Shown piece by piece: positions 12,619-23,931 of a stretch of DNA of 62,828 nt. The DNA is from Nitrospirota bacterium. GTDB lineage: Bacteria > Nitrospirota > Thermodesulfovibrionia > UBA6902. The number at the start of each line of letters is the position of its first letter. Position 1 is the stretch's first letter. The translations under genes were made by a program, and so were the position numbers. The stretch spans positions 1 through 62,828 of the forward strand of contig JACQZF010000015.1 of assembly GCA_016213945.1 (NCBI GenBank), written 5' to 3'. The notes under the pieces are model-generated. The model was not told the DNA's origin, did not search any database, and saw only the letters and a list, made by a program, of their open reading frames with translations.

Positions 12619-12758
12619 AGCAGTTTTGAATTTTGAATATTGTATTTTAAATTCCGAACGAAGTGAGGCTGTTGAATCTTGAATATTGAATTCCGAGCGA
12701 AGCGAGGCTGTTGTTTTGAATTTTAAATATTGAATTTTGAATCCGAACGAAGTGAGGT
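12581..12758 (+). repeat. Triple heptamer/mini-hairpin repeat before csm1
   Basis: A left arm overlaps the end of the four-helix gene. Three successive right arms end in mini-hairpins at 12654-12668 (AC/GT type), 12693-12707 (GC/GC type) and 12743-12757 (AC/GT type). The csm1 start at 12769 follows with its own TGAGG. Confidence 0.85.
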
Positions 12759-12768
12759 TGAGGTAAAT

Positions 12769-15189
12769 ATGAAAGATTTTAATCAAAAAGAATATCAGAC
12801 GGTTATTTTAGGCGCGTTGCTGCATGACGTGGGGAAGATGCTGCAAAGGGGAAATTTTAGATCGCTTGATACAAAAGGTAAACATCCGCAGGTATCTTCA
12901 GTTTTTGTCAGCGCCTTCAAAGATTTCTTTTCCAGATTTGTAGATGTCGATTTACTTCAAACTCTTGTCCAGCGACATCATGAGGATTCGAGATTAGGCG
13001 AAAACCTGATCTGCCAGAATGCTCCCGAAAAATACAGGGCTTTGAGCTATCTTGTAAGTCGGGCTGACAATTATTCATCATCGGAGCGAGGTGAAAAGGC
13101 AGAAGATTATCAGGATTTCAAATCAGTCCCTCTGGTCTCCATATTCAGCCGTATTGATATCGGCAAAGCATTACCTGAAAAACTCAGATACCGTGCCAAG
13201 CCATTGAATCCTGAAGAAACCTTTCCTGAGAAATTCGATGAGTACGACTCTGATGAACTGAATAATCATCTTCAATATTTCGGGGAAGAGTTTAGTATGC
13301 TTGTCAAAGACGCAGAACATACAACTCAGGGTGATTTCTACAATATGTTCGCCAACATTTTTACAATTTTAATGCGGTATACATGGTGCATTCCAAGCAA
13401 CACACAGGAGGAAATTCCTGATGTCTCACTCTTTGACCATCTGAAGACTACCTGCGCCATTGCCGCATGCCTTTATCAATATCACTTTCCTGATTTAAAA
13501 GAAAGTGAGATCAAAAATGACAAAACAGATAAATTTATTCTTCTGGTCAGTGACTTATCAGGTATTCAAAACTATATATTCAACGTCACACACATCGGAG
13601 CGGGCGGGGTTGCTAAACGATTGAGAGCGAGATCCTTTCAGATCAACTTGCTCTCTGAAATTGTAAGCCACAAGATATTACATGTCTTCAACCTGCCTTT
13701 AGCTAATATACTGATGTCATCCGGTGGTAAGTTCTATATATTGCTGCCTAATGTTGGGGACGGAAACAGCAGGATAACAGCACTCAAGAAAGAAATAGAC
13801 ACCTGGTTTTATAAGAAGTTCAATGCCGAAATCAATCTGAACATTGAAACGACATGTTTATCAGGTGATGCTTTTGACAACTACGGAGAAATTTTGCGGA
13901 AGCTGAACCAGTCGCTGCAAAGGATGAAGAAGAAACCTTTCAATGAACTTCTGACAGGGAACGGTTTGTGGAATGAAAATATGGCAGCGCTTAACATTGA
14001 TTTCGGCGATGAGGAGAAACTTTGCAAGGCGTGTAATAAATTCCCCGGTGAAATGAGAGACGGTAAGTTTATCTGCGATAAATGTGAAGACGATAAAATA
14101 ATCGGGCAGAAACTTCCAAAGATAAAATATATCGTGTTTTATAAAAACAATACCGGTGAATTTAAAAATTATCTCGACTACTCCTTTGACTTATTAGATG
14201 ATGTAAGCCATGTAAAATATGGCGCTTATCTCATATTAAGCATAGAGGAATTTATAACTGATTCAAGACTGCCTATGGCTCACCGTTTTATAGCAAACTA
14301 TATATCAACATTCATAAGTATTGACGAATGCTCAGACTGTAAAGACAATATCGTGTGCAGTGAAAAAGATCATGCGCGTGAGGGACAGCCGAAATTCTTT
14401 GAGTGTATTGCCAATGAAAGCACCGGACGCAAGATGCTCGGATACCTAAAGGCTGACGTAGACAATTTGGGCGGTGTATTTGCCTGTGGGCTTAGAGATG
14501 GACAGAAAGACATTGGCACAGTCTCTCGCATTGCTACCTTGAGCAGAATGCTGGATATATTTTTCTCAGGGTATATGCAAAAACTTATTGAGGACAATTA
14601 TCCGGAGCTTTATACTGTCTATTCTGGCGGTGACGATTTGCTTGTTATAGGGCCGTGGGATTCGATAATAAAGTTTGCAGATGAGTTGAACTCTGAATTC
14701 AGAAGGTTTACCTGCAATAACAAAAACCTAACCCTTTCAGCAGGGATAGCATTTGTCAAACACAGCTATCCTGTTTTCAGGGCTGTTGAAATGGCGAATA
14801 ATTACCTCAACATCTCGAAGGCTAATACGGGAAAGGACAGTTTGATGGTTTTCGGACAAACAATAAAATGGAGAGAGGTTCCTGAAATAATCAAAGAGTC
14901 TGAAAAGCTATCAAATTGGCTCAAAGACAAACAGATATCTTCAGGTTTTGCCAACAACCTTCTTTATTATTCACAGATGAACAATAAGTTCAGAGAAAAT
15001 CGACAGACAGAATATCTTCGTTTCCTGCCGCTAATGACCTATGATATTGCAAGAAATATCTCAATTGAGAAACGGGAAATCAGGACTTGGGCTGAAAGCC
15101 TGAAAGATTTAAATAATACAGTGCTGCTAAATCTCGGCATAATCGCAAGCTTTGCATTGACTGCAAATAGAGGTAAAAAAGATGAGTGA
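12769..15189 (+). CDS. csm1: Cas10/Csm1, type III-A signature subunit
   Basis: Csm1 is the large subunit of the type III-A effector: its HD domain cuts ssDNA and its palm domain makes cyclic oligoadenylates on target-RNA binding. HD residues H19-D20 lie in GALLHDVGKM; a zinc-ribbon-like CKAC...CDKC is near residues 420-440; the cyclase motif SGGDDLL has G620-G621-D622-D623. Both activities therefore look intact. 806 aa is a normal length. I take the ATG at 12769 (TGAGGTAAAT upstream); the longer frame starting with MNFESERSEV is repeat-encoded. csm2 starts at or just after its end. Confidence 0.95.
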   Translation: MKDFNQKEYQTVILGALLHDVGKMLQRGNFRSLDTKGKHPQVSSVFVSAFKDFFSRFVDVDLLQTLVQRHHEDSRLGENLICQNAPEKYRALSYLVSRADNYSSSERGEKAEDYQDFKSVPLVSIFSRIDIGKALPEKLRYRAKPLNPEETFPEKFDEYDSDELNNHLQYFGEEFSMLVKDAEHTTQGDFYNMFANIFTILMRYTWCIPSNTQEEIPDVSLFDHLKTTCAIAACLYQYHFPDLKESEIKNDKTDKFILLVSDLSGIQNYIFNVTHIGAGGVAKRLRARSFQINLLSEIVSHKILHVFNLPLANILMSSGGKFYILLPNVGDGNSRITALKKEIDTWFYKKFNAEINLNIETTCLSGDAFDNYGEILRKLNQSLQRMKKKPFNELLTGNGLWNENMAALNIDFGDEEKLCKACNKFPGEMRDGKFICDKCEDDKIIGQKLPKIKYIVFYKNNTGEFKNYLDYSFDLLDDVSHVKYGAYLILSIEEFITDSRLPMAHRFIANYISTFISIDECSDCKDNIVCSEKDHAREGQPKFFECIANESTGRKMLGYLKADVDNLGGVFACGLRDGQKDIGTVSRIATLSRMLDIFFSGYMQKLIEDNYPELYTVYSGGDDLLVIGPWDSIIKFADELNSEFRRFTCNNKNLTLSAGIAFVKHSYPVFRAVEMANNYLNISKANTGKDSLMVFGQTIKWREVPEIIKESEKLSNWLKDKQISSGFANNLLYYSQMNNKFRENRQTEYLRFLPLMTYDIARNISIEKREIRTWAESLKDLNNTVLLNLGIIASFALTANRGKKDE

Positions 15190-15241
15190 CTGGAGAGATA
15201 AACTGAAAAATTCAGAATTATATAAAGCAGGAGGTGGAGGA

Positions 15242-15754
15242 ATGAAAAAAACATGTCTGGACTGCGGGAAAGAATTTGTTCCTAAAGAACAACATCATAA
15301 AATTTGTTTTGACTGCAATAAGAAGAAACATGAGGGGGCAGGCGGTACTGATAAGACAAGATTAAAACTGCCTGATGATTATCTGGCTAAAAGTTATTTT
15401 GACGAAAAAGGACATTTAAGGGAAGGGATATTTAAAGATGATGCAAAGGAGGTAGCAAGAGTATTGGCATCTTTAAGAATGAGTCCTACATCATTGAGAG
15501 CCTTTTACAACAAGTTGATAGCAATAGAAAACAAGTTTAAAAGCTCAGATAATAATTTTGATTTGATCAAACCCAATATTTATGCATTTGAGAGAGATGT
15601 TGCATATCAGGTAAGCAGAGGGGTGGTATCCGAAGAATTTCGTAAGTTCATAAATAAGAATGCCGAACTTGCAAAGAAAGGTCCGAAAGAATTTAAAGGA
15701 TTCAAAGAACACTTCTTAAGTGTTTTAGCATATTTCAAAGATGTATCAAGATAA
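15242..15754 (+). CDS. csm2: Csm2 (Cas11) small subunit with N-terminal zinc ribbon
   Basis: The C-terminal ~120 residues (from LPDDYLAKSYFDEKG to LAYFKDVSR) match Csm2, the helical small subunit lining the crRNA-target duplex. An extra N-terminal zinc-ribbon-like segment (TCLDCGKEF ... KICFDCNKK; C5, C8, C22, C25) precedes it. I choose ATG 15242, after a very strong AGGAGGTGGAGG. An ATG at 15182 overlapping the csm1 stop gives 20 more residues and cannot be excluded. 170 aa compares with about 130-150 for many Csm2. Confidence 0.85.
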   Translation: MKKTCLDCGKEFVPKEQHHKICFDCNKKKHEGAGGTDKTRLKLPDDYLAKSYFDEKGHLREGIFKDDAKEVARVLASLRMSPTSLRAFYNKLIAIENKFKSSDNNFDLIKPNIYAFERDVAYQVSRGVVSEEFRKFINKNAELAKKGPKEFKGFKEHFLSVLAYFKDVSR

Positions 15755-15774
15755 ATAATATAGGAGGAACACAG

Positions 15775-16440
15775 ATGAAACTAAATCAGTTTGTTTCAAT
15801 CACAGGGACTATCCATTGTTTAACTCAGTTGAGAATTGGAGGAACAAAAGAAGGTATTGTTGATCCAGGGGGGGCAGAAAATACAATAATCAGACATCCG
15901 ATAACCTCACTGCCTTATATTCCCGGCTCCTCTTTAAAAGGAAAGATGCGCTCACTATTAGAACTGGATAAATCAAGTGGCGCTGATATCAAAGATGATG
16001 GGAAACCTTGTGGATGCGGGAAATGTTTTGTCTGCAAAATATTTGGATCACATGCGATGTCAAATAAAGAAATTACTCGAATTTTAGTAAGAGATAGTTC
16101 CCTTACAGAGAATTCTGAAGCTATGTTAAGAACAGCACAGGAAGAAAAGGGTATAAACTTCGCCGGAATTAAAAGTGAGAACATAATAAATAGAAGGACA
16201 GGTACTGCTGCTGACAAAGGATTAAGAACACAAGAAACTGTTCCAGCAGGTACAGAGTTTAAGTTAGATATTACAATTAAATTGTTTCACTCTGAATCAG
16301 GTAATGATGATAAAGCCGGAGTAATTGATTTTGTAAAAAAGGGTTTAGACCTTCTACAAAAAGATTACTTAGGAGGTTCTGGTAGTCGGGGTTACGGGAA
16401 AATAAAGATAAATAATTTAGAAGTAAATGACTTAGCGTAG
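15775..16440 (+). CDS. csm3: Csm3 (Cas7) backbone subunit
   Basis: Csm3 forms the crRNA-binding filament and cleaves target RNA every 6 nt in type III-A complexes. Motifs: LRIGGTKEGIVDPGGAENTI, PYIPGSSLKGKMRS near residues 46-59, the CGCGKCFVCKIFG cluster near 80-92, and the C-terminal GGSGSRGYGKIK. 221 aa is typical. In characterised Csm3 the catalytic aspartate lies in a G-G-x-D-N-P-V context; here the aligned residue appears to be glutamate (GGAENTI), which could weaken target-RNA cutting. Strong ribosome-binding site AGGAGG. Visibly A/T-rich compared with the flanking housekeeping genes. Confidence 0.93.
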   Translation: MKLNQFVSITGTIHCLTQLRIGGTKEGIVDPGGAENTIIRHPITSLPYIPGSSLKGKMRSLLELDKSSGADIKDDGKPCGCGKCFVCKIFGSHAMSNKEITRILVRDSSLTENSEAMLRTAQEEKGINFAGIKSENIINRRTGTAADKGLRTQETVPAGTEFKLDITIKLFHSESGNDDKAGVIDFVKKGLDLLQKDYLGGSGSRGYGKIKINNLEVNDLA

Positions 16441-16448
16441 AGGCATCT

Positions 16449-17363
16449 ATGAAAACCTATCGTTTAAAGATCAAACCTCAAAGCAGTTTTCTCACTCCGT
16501 GGCAGGCGGATACGATATTCGGCAATCTTTGTTGGATTATGGCATGGCGAGAAGGCGACGATGCACTAAAAGAGTTTCTTGAACAATACAAAAACGGCAA
16601 TCCTGTGTTTGTTATGTCGGATGGTATGCCAGGAGACCTTTTGCCTTCGCCAGCACATTTATCTTTGGCGGAACAAAAAGAAAAAGGTTTTGACGCTTTT
16701 AAAACAGCCAAAGAGTTGAAAAAGGTAGCTTGGCTTTCCCAGGATGTATTTGAATCAGTACGAGTAGGCAATTTAGAGATTGAACTATCTACTCCTATTA
16801 AAACATTTAAAACCTTTACAACACTTCACAGCTCGATAAACAGACTGTCCGGAACTACAGGGGAAGAAGGTTCATTATTTGAGCTTCCTGAGTATGCTTT
16901 TGAGCAAAATGATATTTCTATCTATCTCAAGATAAAAGACGGCTGGGAAGAAAAAGTCTTTGCGCTTTTTAAAGACCTGTCCTTAACCGGATACGGCAAG
17001 AAAAAGTCTGTCGGCAAGGGAGCGTTTGAGATTATCGGACAGCTTGAGCCGTTTGATAGGTTTGATGGCTTTGACGAAGCAAATGGCTTTATGTCTTTAT
17101 CAAACTTTGTTCCGGCAAAGAATGATCCCACAGATGGCTTCTACAAGACATTAGTTAAATATGGAAAACTCGGTGGTGAATTTACCTTTTGTGGTAAGCC
17201 GTTTAAAAAACCGCTCATGATGCTTACCACCGGATCAAGTTTTAGGGTAAATGGAAACATTAAACCGTTCTACGGTCGAATGGTAAAAGGTATTGCACCT
17301 GCTAAACTGGAGGTTGTTCAGTACGGTTATGCATTTGCAGTACCGGTCGTCGTTAGCATTTAA
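16449..17363 (+). CDS. csm4: Csm4 (Cas5-like) RAMP subunit
   Basis: Csm4 binds the 5' handle of crRNA and contacts Cas10. The 304-aa RAMP has SSFLTPWQADTIFGNLCW at the start, the glycine-rich GYGKKKSVGKGAFEI near 180-195, and the family-typical end (GRMVKGIAPAK ... VQYGYAFAVPV). It follows csm3 by 8 nt. The gene usually next in type III-A operons, csm5, is absent; the following 128 bp encodes nothing recognisable. Confidence 0.9.
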   Translation: MKTYRLKIKPQSSFLTPWQADTIFGNLCWIMAWREGDDALKEFLEQYKNGNPVFVMSDGMPGDLLPSPAHLSLAEQKEKGFDAFKTAKELKKVAWLSQDVFESVRVGNLEIELSTPIKTFKTFTTLHSSINRLSGTTGEEGSLFELPEYAFEQNDISIYLKIKDGWEEKVFALFKDLSLTGYGKKKSVGKGAFEIIGQLEPFDRFDGFDEANGFMSLSNFVPAKNDPTDGFYKTLVKYGKLGGEFTFCGKPFKKPLMMLTTGSSFRVNGNIKPFYGRMVKGIAPAKLEVVQYGYAFAVPVVVSI

Positions 17364-17491: not shown

Positions 17492-18127
17492 ATGGACTTC
17501 AAACACGTACTTGAAAAACTTTTAACAGCCTTCAAAGATCAGGACATCCGCTACGCCCTGATGGGCGGGATGGCGCTTGGGGCGTGGGGTGTTCCGCGGG
17601 GGACTGTAGATATTGATTTTCTTGTGCATCGTGAAGACATGCAGAAAGTTGACGGAATAATGAGAGCGCTTGGATACGAGTATAAATACCGCAGTGAAAA
17701 TGTTACTCAATACCTGTCTCCTCTTAAAATATTCGGTGAGGTTGATTTCCTTCATGCTTTCAGGGTGCCTTCATTAAGTATGCTGCAGCGCACTGTTGAT
17801 AAGCAGATGTTTGACGGATCAGTATCTGTTAAGGTACTGAAGGTAGAAGATTTGATAGGTTTTAAGCTGCAGGGGATGGTAATAAACTCATGGAGAAATA
17901 TGGCGATGCTTAATGCAGGTGAGAAAGAAGAACTGATAAGGCTTGCGAACTCGTCATCGATGAAGGAAGATATGAGATATTTATCTGACCACAGGCATAA
18001 TCCTGTAATGATTGCGGGTCAGGTTAGCATGGACAGGCTGCTTGATTTTCTTAACGACTTCAATGAATTCATCAACCATGAACCAAAGCCTTTCAAGCCG
18101 ATGATTGAGAAGGAGATGAAGCTGTGA
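17492..18127 (+). CDS. Nucleotidyltransferase-fold protein
   Basis: The first 70 residues have the minimal-nucleotidyltransferase pattern GGMALGAWGVPRGTVDIDFLV: GG with a catalytic D-x-D (DID). The remainder (KVLKVEDLIGFKLQGMV...) is like the AbiEii/DUF6036-type enzymes that transfer nucleotides or act in toxin-antitoxin pairs. No HEPN or AbiEi partner is adjacent. It takes the place where csm5 would be expected. Whether it serves the CRISPR system or is a passenger cannot be decided. Substrate unknown. Confidence 0.75.
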   Translation: MDFKHVLEKLLTAFKDQDIRYALMGGMALGAWGVPRGTVDIDFLVHREDMQKVDGIMRALGYEYKYRSENVTQYLSPLKIFGEVDFLHAFRVPSLSMLQRTVDKQMFDGSVSVKVLKVEDLIGFKLQGMVINSWRNMAMLNAGEKEELIRLANSSSMKEDMRYLSDHRHNPVMIAGQVSMDRLLDFLNDFNEFINHEPKPFKPMIEKEMKL

Positions 18128-19821: not shown

Positions 19822-20100
19822 ATGCGGACGCTTTTTCTAATCGCCTACGACATTACTGATGACAGGAGGCTGACCCAGACGAGGGAATTTCTCAAGGGCT
19901 ACAGCACCGGCGGGCAGAAGTCTGTGTATGAGTGTTTTCTGACAGACGGTGAACTTGTTCACGTTAAAAGAGCCATTGACGGGATCATTGACGAGGAAGA
20001 CGACAGGGTGCACATCTTCACAATGGATGGAAGGAGCAGGACGCATACGCTTGGCATCGGTGTCCAGCCAAAAGATCCGGAGTATTTTTATATTGGATAA
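19822..20100 (+). CDS. cas2: Cas2 (first copy)
   Basis: Cas2 is the dimeric core of the spacer-integration complex. The 92-aa sequence has LFLIAYDITDDRRL with the conserved first-strand aspartate, GGQKSVYECFL, and the C-terminal strand EYFYIG. I use the ATG at 19822 directly behind the repeat-borne GGAGTGAGG; a GTG two codons earlier also lies in the repeat. It is separated from cas1a by another repeat block, so unlike cas2b it is not translationally coupled to a cas1. Confidence 0.92.
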   Translation: MRTLFLIAYDITDDRRLTQTREFLKGYSTGGQKSVYECFLTDGELVHVKRAIDGIIDEEDDRVHIFTMDGRSRTHTLGIGVQPKDPEYFYIG

Positions 20101-20282
20101 AAAACAAATTCAATATTCAAAATTCAAGATTCAAAAAGAACTGGATTCCCGCTTACAACCTGCGGGAATGACGATTTTCCGGTTTTGAATTTTGAATTTG
20201 AAATTTTGAATCCCGAACGAAGTGAGGTTAACGTGGTTTTGAATATTGAATGTTGAATTTTGAATCCGAACGAAGTGAGGTT
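20101..20282 (+). repeat. Composite repeat between cas2a and cas1a
   Basis: It contains a left arm (about 20108-20135), a 'CTGGATTCCCGC...GCGGGAATGACG' palindrome (20141-20173), and two right arms with mini-hairpins at 20213-20227 and 20266-20280 (both AC/GT type). The last places GAGG 3 nt before the cas1a ATG and adds an in-frame MLNFESERSEV upstream. Confidence 0.85.
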
Positions 20283-21356
20283 ATGGGAACACTTTACATT
20301 GACAGAAAAGAACTTCACGTAAGGCTGGACGGCGATGCCCTGGCGTTTTATGCAAACGGCGAACGCGAAGGTATTGTCCCGATACATCCATTGAAGCGGG
20401 TGATCATGGTCGGCAATATTACGATTGAAACATCTGTGCTGAACAGGCTTGCCAATGACAATATCAGCGTGCTGTTCATCTCCGGCAAGCGAAACAGGTT
20501 CTGCGGGATGCTTCATGGGAAGATGCATAACAATGGTTTACTGAGGGTGAAACAATATGAGAAAGTTTCAGGGAATCTCCCCTCGCCCCTCTTTGCCAAA
20601 GAGGGGAACAACACACCCCTGCCCCCTCTTGATAGAAGGGAACAAATAACTCCCCCTTTGGAAAAGGGGGATAGAGGGGGATTTTCCATACAGTTTTCGC
20701 TCAATATTGTACAAAGAAAAGTTGAAGGTCAGCGTGAATTGCTTCTTTACATCAGGGAGCAGCGGCCTGATTTGCGCTTAAGAATGACAGCAGCAGCTCA
20801 GGTATTTGAAAGGATTCTTGAAGAGCTGCAAAAGCCTGATATTGGGATGGATACGTTAAGGGGCTTTGAAGGCGGCGCTTCGGCAACTTATTTCGGAGCC
20901 TATACGGAGGCCTTTCCTGGTTCGCTTGAGTTTACGGGAAGAAACAGACGTCCGCCTGAGGACCCTGTGAATGCTATTCTGTCGCTTTGCTACACCCTTG
21001 TGCATTTCGATATAGTTCGCGAGATTGAGGTGATAGGCCTTGATCCGGTTATAGGTTTTTATCATCAGTTCGACTACGGCCGTGAATCTCTTGCATGCGA
21101 TCTTATAGAACCGTATCGTCCGATGGTTGACAGGTTTGCATGGGAGATATTCCGAGAAAGGACATTCACGATCAGGGATTTCGCGATGAATGACGAACGT
21201 CCAGGATGCTATCTGAAGAAGGAGAGCCGGAAAAGATTTTATCCCATGTATGAAGAATGGGTGCAGAATACACGACCGCTGTGGGTCGAAGATGTGAGAG
21301 AGCTTGCAAGGAGGATAATGGATGGGCAGGACACTGTACATAAATCAGACGAGTAA
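20283..21356 (+). CDS. cas1: Cas1 (first copy, catalytic residues present)
   Basis: Cas1 is the integrase that inserts new spacers. The metal ligands expected for the family are E196 (GFEGGASATYF), H261 (FYHQFDYGRES) and E276 (CDLIEPYRP). Residues about 98-137 are encoded by two palindromic repeats (SPLFAKEGNNT, PPLEKGDRGGF) in frame, between the N-terminal beta domain and the helical domain, so 357 aa would be about 317 without them. I start at ATG 20283; the upstream MLNFESERSEV is repeat-encoded. cas1b overlaps its end by 35 nt. Confidence 0.92.
   Translation: MGTLYIDRKELHVRLDGDALAFYANGEREGIVPIHPLKRVIMVGNITIETSVLNRLANDNISVLFISGKRNRFCGMLHGKMHNNGLLRVKQYEKVSGNLPSPLFAKEGNNTPLPPLDRREQITPPLEKGDRGGFSIQFSLNIVQRKVEGQRELLLYIREQRPDLRLRMTAAAQVFERILEELQKPDIGMDTLRGFEGGASATYFGAYTEAFPGSLEFTGRNRRPPEDPVNAILSLCYTLVHFDIVREIEVIGLDPVIGFYHQFDYGRESLACDLIEPYRPMVDRFAWEIFRERTFTIRDFAMNDERPGCYLKKESRKRFYPMYEEWVQNTRPLWVEDVRELARRIMDGQDTVHKSDE
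20574..20692. repeat. Palindromic repeats inserted in frame in cas1a
   Basis: Two neighbouring inverted repeats (CCCCTCTTTGCCAAAGAGGGG and CCCCCTTTGG.AAAAGGGGG types) encode PLFAKEGN and PPLEKGDRGGF. Related sequences lie in frame in the activase gene (about 26405-26455) and livF (about 41520-41565). Confidence 0.8.
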
Positions 21357-22152
21357 ACCGGTAATCTTCAGAGATGGCCCTTCAATATGGGTTGAGGAGG
21401 AGGGCAAGGCCGGGAGGCGTATACCTGCGAGATTGGTTGGACGGGTAATAATCATCGGCAATGTAAAACTCGATTCCGGCACAATCACCCTTTTTGCTGA
21501 AAACAACACGCCAATTACTTTTATGAATAACAGAACGGACGAAACAGCGGTAGTCATTCCCTATAATCACAGGCTGCCTGATCATTATAAAGAACAAAAG
21601 ATATTTCTCGATTCAAAAGAGAACATTGAACATTTCGAACAGTGGGCCAATTCAAAACGTGCACTGTTGCAGATGGCGTTACTCAGGAGATTCCTGCCGA
21701 AACTGATGCCGAGATTTGAAACCGTCGGCTTTGGCGAAGGTAATTATCAGGAGATTCTCAAGACTCTGAGAAAAGTCGGGGACCGGAAATGGCTTGCTGC
21801 AAACGGCATCATCAATAATATTTTCCGAAATATGATTGTAGAACATATGATTAAGTCCGGCCTGGACCCGCATTTAGGCGTCCTTCACAGAAGGCACAAC
21901 TTCGGACTGGCCCTCGACCTTTGCTATATCATGTCCGGGATGAGCGATTTGCAGACCTTGCAGTTTTTCCACACCTGCAAGGACAATAATTTTATTGAGA
22001 AAGACCGTGAGAACTGGTTCGTCACCGACGCAGGCATAAGGAACATCATTCATCGATTTGAGAACAGGCGCGCCGCTATGCAGGAGAAGGTCGAGAATAT
22101 TCTGGATGAGCTGTTTGCTTTAATAAGGGAGATGCTTACAAATGAAAGCTGA
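21322..22152 (+). CDS. cas1: Cas1 paralogue lacking a metal-ligand glutamate
   Basis: The 276-aa protein is Cas1-like: N-terminal LYINQTSKPVIFRDG beta domain, NGIINNIF, and GLDPHLGVLHRRHNFGLALDL. The ligand histidine is present (H189). Fifteen residues on, where Cas1a has E276 in DLIEP, this protein has Y202 in ALDLCYIM. The first glutamate may be E139 in FGEGNYQEI, but the normal loop after it is about 15 residues shorter. It is probably inactive or altered as an integrase and could be a structural partner of Cas1a. GGAGG lies 7 nt before the ATG; it overlaps both cas1a (35 nt) and cas2b (11 nt). Confidence 0.85.
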   Translation: MGRTLYINQTSKPVIFRDGPSIWVEEEGKAGRRIPARLVGRVIIIGNVKLDSGTITLFAENNTPITFMNNRTDETAVVIPYNHRLPDHYKEQKIFLDSKENIEHFEQWANSKRALLQMALLRRFLPKLMPRFETVGFGEGNYQEILKTLRKVGDRKWLAANGIINNIFRNMIVEHMIKSGLDPHLGVLHRRHNFGLALDLCYIMSGMSDLQTLQFFHTCKDNNFIEKDRENWFVTDAGIRNIIHRFENRRAAMQEKVENILDELFALIREMLTNES

Positions 22153-22420
22153 TTATCTGGTATGCTACGACATAGCCGATCCGAGGCGCCTCGGAAGGGT
22201 CTACAAGTTTATGGCCGGCAAGGGTAAGCACCTTCAGTACTCCGTCTTTCACTGCTCTCTGACGTGGCAGGAACTGCAAATTATGAAAGAAAAGCTTAAT
22301 GCCTTGATTGAAGAAGACGAAGACGATATCCGGATATATCCGCTGCCCGCAAGCGGCAAGGTGTTCACAATGGGATGCGGCGACAGACTGCCGGAGGGCG
22401 TAGAAATTTTTATGGAGTAA
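22142..22420 (+). CDS. cas2: Cas2 (second copy)
   Basis: The 92-aa protein shows YLVCYDIADPRRLGRVYKFM with the conserved aspartate, GKHLQYSVFHCSL and a charged DEDDIRIYPLP strand, all typical of Cas2. It differs widely from cas2a, so this is not a recent duplication. Overlapping start with cas1b implies the two are made together. It is the cas gene next to the leader. Confidence 0.93.
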   Translation: MKADYLVCYDIADPRRLGRVYKFMAGKGKHLQYSVFHCSLTWQELQIMKEKLNALIEEDEDDIRIYPLPASGKVFTMGCGDRLPEGVEIFME

Positions 22421-22644
22421 AAATCCTACACCGATTCAAAATTCAAAATGTTTTGAATCTTGAATTTTGAATATTGAATCCCAAACAAAGTGAGGGTATA
22501 GTCTTGAATTTTGAATATTGAATTTTGAATCCAGCCGAAGGCTGGTTAAAAGGAGGTGAAAGTAGGTTGCTACTAAACAAGACAAAAATCTGCACAACCG
22601 TCGCTGTAATTCAAAGAAATATAAAAACAAATGGCATGTGGGCG
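22421..22644 (+). promoter_or_regulatory. CRISPR leader with two heptamer/mini-hairpin repeats
   Basis: The gap between cas2b and the first repeat starts with a left arm (about 22435-22449) and two right arms ending in CCAAACAAAGTGAGG (22481-22495) and the fully paired hairpin CCAGCCGAAGGCTGG (22531-22545). About 100 bp of A-rich unique DNA follows (22546-22644) with a strong but orphan AGGAGGTGA at 22551-22559. The array reads rightward because repeats end in ATTGCGAC (like the usual ATTGAAAC handle) and decay at the right end. Confidence 0.6.
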
Positions 22645-23462
22645 GAATCAAAGAAGACCTTATGAAAAAGGGATTGCGACGCGCAATTACGCCAGAAAAG
22701 CGATTTTTAAGCGAATCAAAGAAGACCTTATGAAAAAGGGATTGCGACCGGCCTTTGCTGCGACTTCTGTGTACTTTTTCATAGAATCAAAGAAGACCTT
22801 ATGAAAAAGGGATTGCGACATTACTGTTTACGTGTTTCCATAAGGCTTCGAGAATCAAAGAAGACCTTATGAAAAAGGGATTGCGACTTATAAGAGTTTC
22901 GTCTGTTATTGTTGGAAAGCTGTGAATCAAAGAAGACCTTATGAAAAAGGGATTGCGACATTACCGTAAGTGCGATCAATACTCTTCTCGTTGAATCAAA
23001 GAAGACCTTATGAAAAAGGGATTGCGGAATCAAAGAAGACCTTATGAAAAAGGGATTGCGACCCGTGTACTCATGCCTGTCCGATAGTCTCGGCGAATCA
23101 AAGAAGACCTTATGAAAAAGGGATTGCGACTTTTCGTCACACTCTTCCACTTACGGTAATTACCGGAATCAAAGAAGACCTTATGAAAAAGGGATTGCGA
23201 CCGTACTTCTTGCCGGATTTCTTATCCGTACCGTGAATCAAAGAAGACCTTATGAAAAAGGGATTGCGACTCCTTTTCAGGACAGTCAAAGGCAGTATGC
23301 AAATCGAATCAAAGAAGACCTTATGAAAAAGGGATTGCGACATCCATTTTTTTCTCCTTTTTTCATTTTTATTAAGAATCAAAGAAGACCTTATGCAAAA
23401 GGGATTGCGACACTGCTTTAAACCCGGAGACGCCGATAGTTGAGCGAATCAAAGAAGACCTT
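22645..23462 (+). CRISPR. CRISPR array: 12 repeats plus a 17-nt partial, 11 spacers
   Basis: The repeat is 36 nt, starts GAATCAAAGAAGACC and ends AAAAGGGATTGCGAC. Repeats begin at 22645, 22713, 22784, 22852, 22924, 22993, 23027, 23095, 23166, 23235, 23306, 23376 and 23446. Spacers are 32-36 nt. The sixth repeat lacks its last two bases and abuts the seventh with no spacer. The twelfth has one substitution (ATGCAAAA), and the thirteenth stops after 17 nt and runs straight into purN-like coding sequence. The terminal decay marks the right end as the oldest, leader-distal end. One spacer (23342-23375) is almost pure A/T pyrimidine tract. Spacer targets are unknown. Confidence 0.98.
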
Positions 23463-23931
23463 GTACTACTCTCATATCGCTGAGGAATTGAAAAAGAGGG
23501 ACGTTGAATTGGTTGTCCTCGCGGGCTTCATGAGAGTGGTCGGCAAGGCGCTCATTGATCAGTACCGGAATAAGATCATGAACATCCACCCTGCCCTGCT
23601 CCCGTCATTCCCCGGACTTCACGGACAGAAACAGGCTGTTGATTACGGGGTGAAGATCTCCGGCTGCACAGTGCATTTCGTGGACGAAGGAATGGACACC
23701 GGGGCGATAATCATCCAGGCCGCGGTCCCGGCATATCATGATGATACTGAAGAAACCCTTTCGGAAAGAATATTGAAACAGGAACACAGGATATTCCCGT
23801 ATGCTATCAAGCTTTACTCAGAAGGCAGGATCTCAGTTGAAGGCCGAAAGGTGATCATCAAAGGGGACAGGGAAGATTCCTCACTCATAAACCCGCCGTT
23901 CTCTCCATACATTCTCCAGCCTGGTGCATAA
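23463..23931 (+). pseudogene. purN: purN fragment, 5' third missing
   Basis: From YYSHIAEELKKRDVELVVLAGFMR onward this is glycinamide ribonucleotide (GAR) formyltransferase, the formyl-tetrahydrofolate-dependent third step of purine synthesis. The catalytic region NIHPALLPSFPGLHG and SGCTVHFVDEGMDTGAII are present. The first ~75 residues (phosphate-binding GSGSN loop) are missing: the CRISPR array's partial repeat joins directly to the coding sequence. A TTG at 23440, inside the last spacer, is in frame but lacks a convincing ribosome-binding site. The purM gene on the other side of the CRISPR locus indicates that purM and purN were once neighbours. Probably non-functional unless another purN or purT exists. 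Its end overlaps the convergent activase gene. Confidence 0.88.

Follow-up and report, generated by a model that had tools for sequence, protein, structure and literature searches.

A four-gene adaptation cassette beside a type III-A locus

The 62,828-nucleotide stretch of Nitrospirota DNA analysed here (the window) carries two unlike pairs of CRISPR adaptation genes in the order cas2a–cas1a–cas1b–cas2b, with a CRISPR leader and array beyond them (Table 1). All four products score above the Pfam cut-offs for Cas1 or Cas2. The coordinates agree with the gene order and the overlaps described in a first-pass annotation of this DNA; cas1a and cas1b share 35 nt and cas1b and cas2b share 11 nt. Cas1a comprises 357 amino acids counted from the MGTLY start. 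The dispersed repeat inserted in its gene contributes ~33 extra residues that relatives lack in the alignment, and residues 99–131 of the insert are modelled as disordered (pLDDT <50).

Upstream of the cassette lie genes for Cas6, a Cas_NE0113 protein, the cas10–csm2–csm3–csm4 effectors, a nucleotidyltransferase-like protein, a Card1-like CARF nuclease and a Csx3-like protein. Matches of Cas10/Csm1, Csm2, Csm3 and Csm4 to NCBIfam equivalogs assign the locus to type III-A (Csm); the proteins scanned in this locus included no recognisable csm5, a divergent form of which is possible. The nucleotidyltransferase-like gene (NTP_transf_5/AbiEii; 17492–18127) is also found near the cassette in loci L039, L040, L041, L044, L048, L053 and L055. 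Cas1 is encoded at three further places elsewhere in this genome, at one of which it is split into two reading frames. Among named relatives the closest is a Thermodesulfovibrionia MAG, whose Cas1b is 85% identical to that of the window.

Table 1. Features of the cassette and its surroundings in the window.
Feature	Position	Strand	Basis
cas10–csm2–csm3–csm4, type III-A effectors adjoining the cassette	12730..17363	+	NCBIfam Csm1, Csm2, Csm3, Csm4
cas2a	19822..20100	+	Pfam CRISPR_Cas2, E 7.6e-17; family alignment
cas1a, catalytically intact by residues (E196, H261, E276)	20283..21356	+	Pfam Cas_Cas1, E 1.1e-70
Dispersed genomic repeat, in-frame insertion in cas1a (~residues 97–134)	20571..20684	+	46 genome matches
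cas1b, predicted catalytically inactive Cas1 paralogue, Y202 at last metal ligand	21322..22152	+	Pfam Cas_Cas1, E 5.2e-16
cas2b	22142..22420	+	Pfam CRISPR_Cas2, E 1.8e-18; family alignment
CRISPR leader with elements common to cassette loci (AGGTTG; TGCACAAC)	22535..22644	+	Fixed positions, shuffle test
CRISPR array, 12 repeats (36 nt, GAATCAAAGAAGACCTTATGAAAAAGGGATTGCGAC; one of 34 nt), spacers 32–36 nt	22645..23411	+	Repeat family common to other cassettes

Cas2a and Cas2b are two distinct Cas2 families. Their family alignments yield separate signature motifs, LKGYSTGGQKSVYECFL...DGRS..H.LGI...PKDP.YFYIG in Cas2a and G.H.QYSVF.C..TW...DD.RIYPLP in Cas2b.

The cassette is conserved across several phyla

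We found the cassette in more than 50 genomes of Nitrospirota, Planctomycetota, Gammaproteobacteria and the Aminicenantes group; genome counts here are samples rather than censuses, and several of the loci belong to metagenome bins with a possibly wrong taxonomy (for example, bins labelled 'Archaeoglobi' and 'Deferribacteres'). A Cas1b search matched 37 of 296 Nitrospirota genomes, 150 of which encode some Cas1. Thirty Nitrospirota loci were retrieved; cas1a and cas2b are in order in all 30 and cas2a in 29, the contig of the remaining locus ending within cas2a so that most of the gene is missing. In addition, 84,980 species genomes were scanned with closer query sequences. This returned 26 loci, every one in the order cas2a–cas1a–cas1b–cas2b, in which cas1a overlaps cas1b in 23 and cas1b overlaps cas2b in 24, usually by 4 nt. 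The phylum of Candidatus Jettenia gave seven strong matches, some with DNA inserted between the genes and one broken, and the cassette is also present in the phylum of an Aminicenantes MAG. A search of a plasmid collection found no relatives of the cassette. Since its frame and four-gene context are kept in dozens of genomes, cas1b is neither a chance reading frame nor a broken gene.

Cas1b has lost the Cas1 active site

The residues assigned to the active site of Cas1a on first inspection, E196, H261 and E276, form an invariant triad, complete in 38/38 aligned relatives; judged by its residues, Cas1a thus has the Glu-His-Glu/Asp metal triad of an active Cas1 integrase. The full triad occurs in none of the 38 aligned Cas1b partners. 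The first-pass annotation was right that Cas1b of the window keeps H189 and has Y202 in place of the last glutamate, as these residues align with H261 and E276 of Cas1a. The loss of one glutamate is real, but describing the defect in this way understated it. The last glutamate is missing in 37/38 Cas1b proteins, replaced by Y, H, L, R, F, Q, V or A, and the only one to retain it (L035) is without the other two ligands. The histidine is retained in 22 and is N, Y, Q, R, F or S in 16. E139, proposed as a possible first glutamate, does lie near that position, but a gap in the profile alignment leaves its placement uncertain; the position is acidic in 32 of the 38 proteins and R, P, Q or G in six. 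D199, present in 37/38, corresponds to D273 of Cas1a and hence is a shared residue rather than a replacement ligand. In the gammaproteobacterial Cas1b sequences, read by eye, no metal ligands were seen.

Family libraries recognise Cas1b only as a weak generic Cas1. It scores 59.1 bits against PF01867 (curated cut-off 22.3; Cas1a, 238.5 bits) and 55.7 bits against the NCBIfam cas1 model, below the cut-off of 71.7.

Cas1b has a predicted Cas1 fold and is under purifying selection

Structure prediction assigns Cas1b a complete Cas1 fold with confidence, N-terminal beta domain and C-terminal helical domain included. The AlphaFold2 single-chain model is confident from end to end (mean pLDDT 90.7), aligns with solved Cas1 over 260–267 residues (Z 24.7; VIA-align 2) and has a best Foldseek E of 1.4e-11.

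The rate at which Cas1b diverges is about 1.6 times that of Cas1a. Its dN/dS values are 0.04–0.38 and below 1 in every pair that yielded a value (some gave none); most pairs fall at 0.04–0.19 and the closest pair at 0.38, the values being rough because dS is near saturation in distant pairs. By these ratios Cas1b evolves under purifying selection despite the loss of its active site. Degeneration of cas1b was sought in relatives and found in isolated copies only. L133 (G079) has a cas1b cut to 190 aa and a cas2b, no cas1a and an array of three repeats, and cas1b is frame-broken in L120/L145.

Each Cas1 is a single family and the four genes are inherited together

A tree of 126 Cas1 proteins places Cas1a in one group (98) and the 38 core Cas1b proteins in another (100), and with the gammaproteobacterial partners added every Cas1a falls in one clade (100/100). 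Cas1b of the Gammaproteobacteria has diverged far; direct comparison recognises its N-terminal domain. A profile of these proteins matches Nitrospirota Cas1b along its full length (250 columns, E 1.6e-25) and matches Cas1a over the N-terminal 80 columns only. The trees and profiles show that all Cas1b sequences belong to one family and all their Cas1a partners to one clade. With two Cas1 clades and two Cas2 families, the pairs are indeed as unlike as the first-pass annotation had them, and the cassette departs from the canonical complement of one Cas1 and one Cas2 family. A joint clade of Cas1a and Cas1b is compatible with the data (p-AU 0.865); the origin of Cas1b by duplication of a Cas1a ancestor is thus permitted, and unproven because the Cas1b branch is long.

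Pairwise distances among the four cassette proteins are correlated (r 0.66–0.80), which, the genes being adjacent, is co-inheritance and no proof of contact between their products. Compared with the window, L039 has a Cas1b 85% identical and a Cas10 34% identical; in L061 the corresponding values are 40% and 68%. The cassette hence travels independently of the effector genes.

One lineage (L109/L136) has cas2a–cas1a–cas2b and a 14-repeat array and is without Cas1b. We considered L109 as an ancestral three-gene state and dropped the idea; its Cas1a nests inside the cassette Cas1a clade, which makes secondary loss of Cas1b the likelier history. A Cas1a with two Cas2s can apparently survive on its own, and Cas1b is therefore not strictly needed.

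The cassette has a conserved leader and its own repeats

Across 21 leaders, AGGTTG occurs in 12 and TGC[AT]CAA in 11 at fixed distances before the first repeat. Shuffled leaders gave means of 0.24 and 0.04, respectively, and reached the observed counts in 0 of 2000 shuffles. Arrays linked to cassettes have repeats of 36–37 nt built on the core GACCT...AAGGGATTGCGAC, separated by spacers of about 30–42 nt. Conserved leader elements together with a repeat family of their own support an integrase with its own target site.

Two repeats of the window's array stand back to back without a spacer (22993–23062, junction near 23026), the first lacking its last two bases. Beyond the array, a purN-like gene (23440–23931) lacks its first ~60 residues and starts within an incomplete CRISPR repeat where the array ends; the genome has one other formyltransferase match, a 322-aa frame resembling fmt. 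L039 likewise has a purN, a longer one, on the far side of its array.

A proposed division of labour between Cas1a and Cas1b

Solved integrase structures show a Cas2 dimer between two Cas1 dimers, each of which has a single catalysing subunit. The remaining, inactive Cas1 subunits form the walls of the channel for the CRISPR repeat (PMC12259127), and in an RT-Cas1 structure the catalytic and non-catalytic positions have been named Cas1a and Cas1b (PMC8102632). We think it probable, with appreciable room for doubt, that the cassette encodes an integrase in which Cas1 has divided into a catalytic form, Cas1a, and a dedicated non-catalytic one, Cas1b, and which has two different Cas2s. On the simplest reading, duplication would have given each position a cas1 gene of its own, and Cas2 would have split in parallel. 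Cas1a would be the catalytic subunit and Cas1b its permanent non-catalytic partner, a Cas1a–Cas1b heterodimer sitting at each end of a Cas2 core that is probably itself a Cas2a–Cas2b heterodimer. Such a complex would add spacers to the neighbouring array at its conserved leader; the gain from the split might be, for example, discrimination between ends or orientations. The first-pass annotation had suggested a heteromeric complex with an inactive half. As a proposal this best fits the single origin of each Cas1 family, the co-inheritance, the overlapping frames and the purifying selection on Cas1b; against it speak the L109/L136 lineage, which does without Cas1b, the faster divergence of Cas1b and the lower conservation of its C-terminal domain.

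A more specific form of the model is conceivable rather than probable. Here the integrase would be an obligate, asymmetric (Cas1a)2(Cas1b)2–Cas2a–Cas2b assembly in which subunit identity distinguishes the ends of incoming DNA or the leader and spacer sides. If true, the orientation of spacers in type III systems could be fixed in this way.

Other roles for Cas1b can be envisaged. Cas1b might not pair with Cas1a at all and instead form a DNA-binding complex of its own, for example with Cas2b, acting in prespacer capture, in leader recognition, a role that the first-pass annotation also raised, or in the regulation of adaptation. The frequent cas1b/cas2b overlap would suit this, as would the basic character of Cas1b (mean pI 9.5 versus 8.6 for Cas1a) and the persistence of Cas1a without Cas1b in L109/L136. 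However, cas1a and cas1b overlap almost as often, no partner recurs beyond the cassette genes, and it is the N-terminal domain, which makes the dimer in known Cas1, that is the better conserved part of Cas1b (mean identity 49%, against 33% for the C-terminal domain). We consider a separate complex unlikely.

A reduced metal site made of E139, H189 and D199 could in principle make Cas1b an active nuclease, such as a prespacer trimmer, and each of the three positions is kept in a majority of the 38 proteins. We judge this improbable. The histidine is exchanged in 16 of them and the E139 position is non-acidic in six, D199 has a counterpart in Cas1a and so replaces nothing, and the gammaproteobacterial genes are retained although their products lack the ligands.

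The mirrored order of two encoded pairs could also be read as two separate integrases, Cas1a–Cas2a and Cas1b–Cas2b, serving different arrays or substrates. This is very improbable, as every Cas1b is without the full catalytic set and a single leader and a single type of array follow the cassette in most loci. Finally, that Cas1b is a decaying, functionless duplicate is hardly credible, for although its active site is gone, isolated cassettes are broken (the truncated cas1b of L133, lacking cas1a, and the broken frames of L120/L145) and dN/dS reaches its highest value in the closest pair, we rejected this reading on conservation and selection, the protein being intact across several phyla with purifying selection and conserved overlaps.

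Comparison with known systems

The cassette resembles type III-A (Csm) systems in its surroundings, where cas10–csm2–csm3–csm4, Cas6 and Card1-like and Csx3-like proteins also adjoin it; standard type III-A adaptation modules have one Cas1 and one Cas2. Loci L101, L102 and L111 encode long Cas1 fusions (489–745 aa), with a pair of different Cas2 genes after each, and are possibly another two-Cas2 integrase. Group 1 of the Cas1-solo proteins comprises stand-alone Cas1 without catalytic residues (PMC9939771). Like these, Cas1b lacks a full catalytic set, but it sits in a CRISPR-cas cassette beside an active Cas1, whereas cas1-solo genes lie outside CRISPR-cas loci. RT-Cas1 and Cas6-RT-Cas1-Cas2 integrases (PMC8102632) share the type III association, and the long Cas1 fusions of L101, L102 and L111 with their paired Cas2 genes are a further point of resemblance; there, however, one Cas1 polypeptide occupies both positions, and the cassette genes described here are without a reverse transcriptase.

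We found no description of a paired active and inactive Cas1 in the open-access literature, which is weak evidence, or in the family libraries. The canonical (Cas1)4(Cas2)2 integrases of types I-E, I-F and II-A have the same folds, the same catalytic triad and a leader-proximal array. To our knowledge, in every CRISPR integrase studied so far a single Cas1 polypeptide and a single Cas2 polypeptide fill all positions, so that no mutation can be confined to the catalytic or to the idle Cas1 position. Separate genes for the two would make their roles separable, and the cassette points to an explanation, open to test, of how type III systems might govern the ends or the orientation of their spacers. 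It would also be a clear case of an enzyme duplicated into a catalytic and a structural subunit. In the canonical complex two of the four Cas1 subunits are idle; in the cassette the idle and the active role apparently fall to different gene products, accompanied by two Cas2 families, and Cas1b persists across several phyla, probably as the built-in structural half of a spacer-storage machine.
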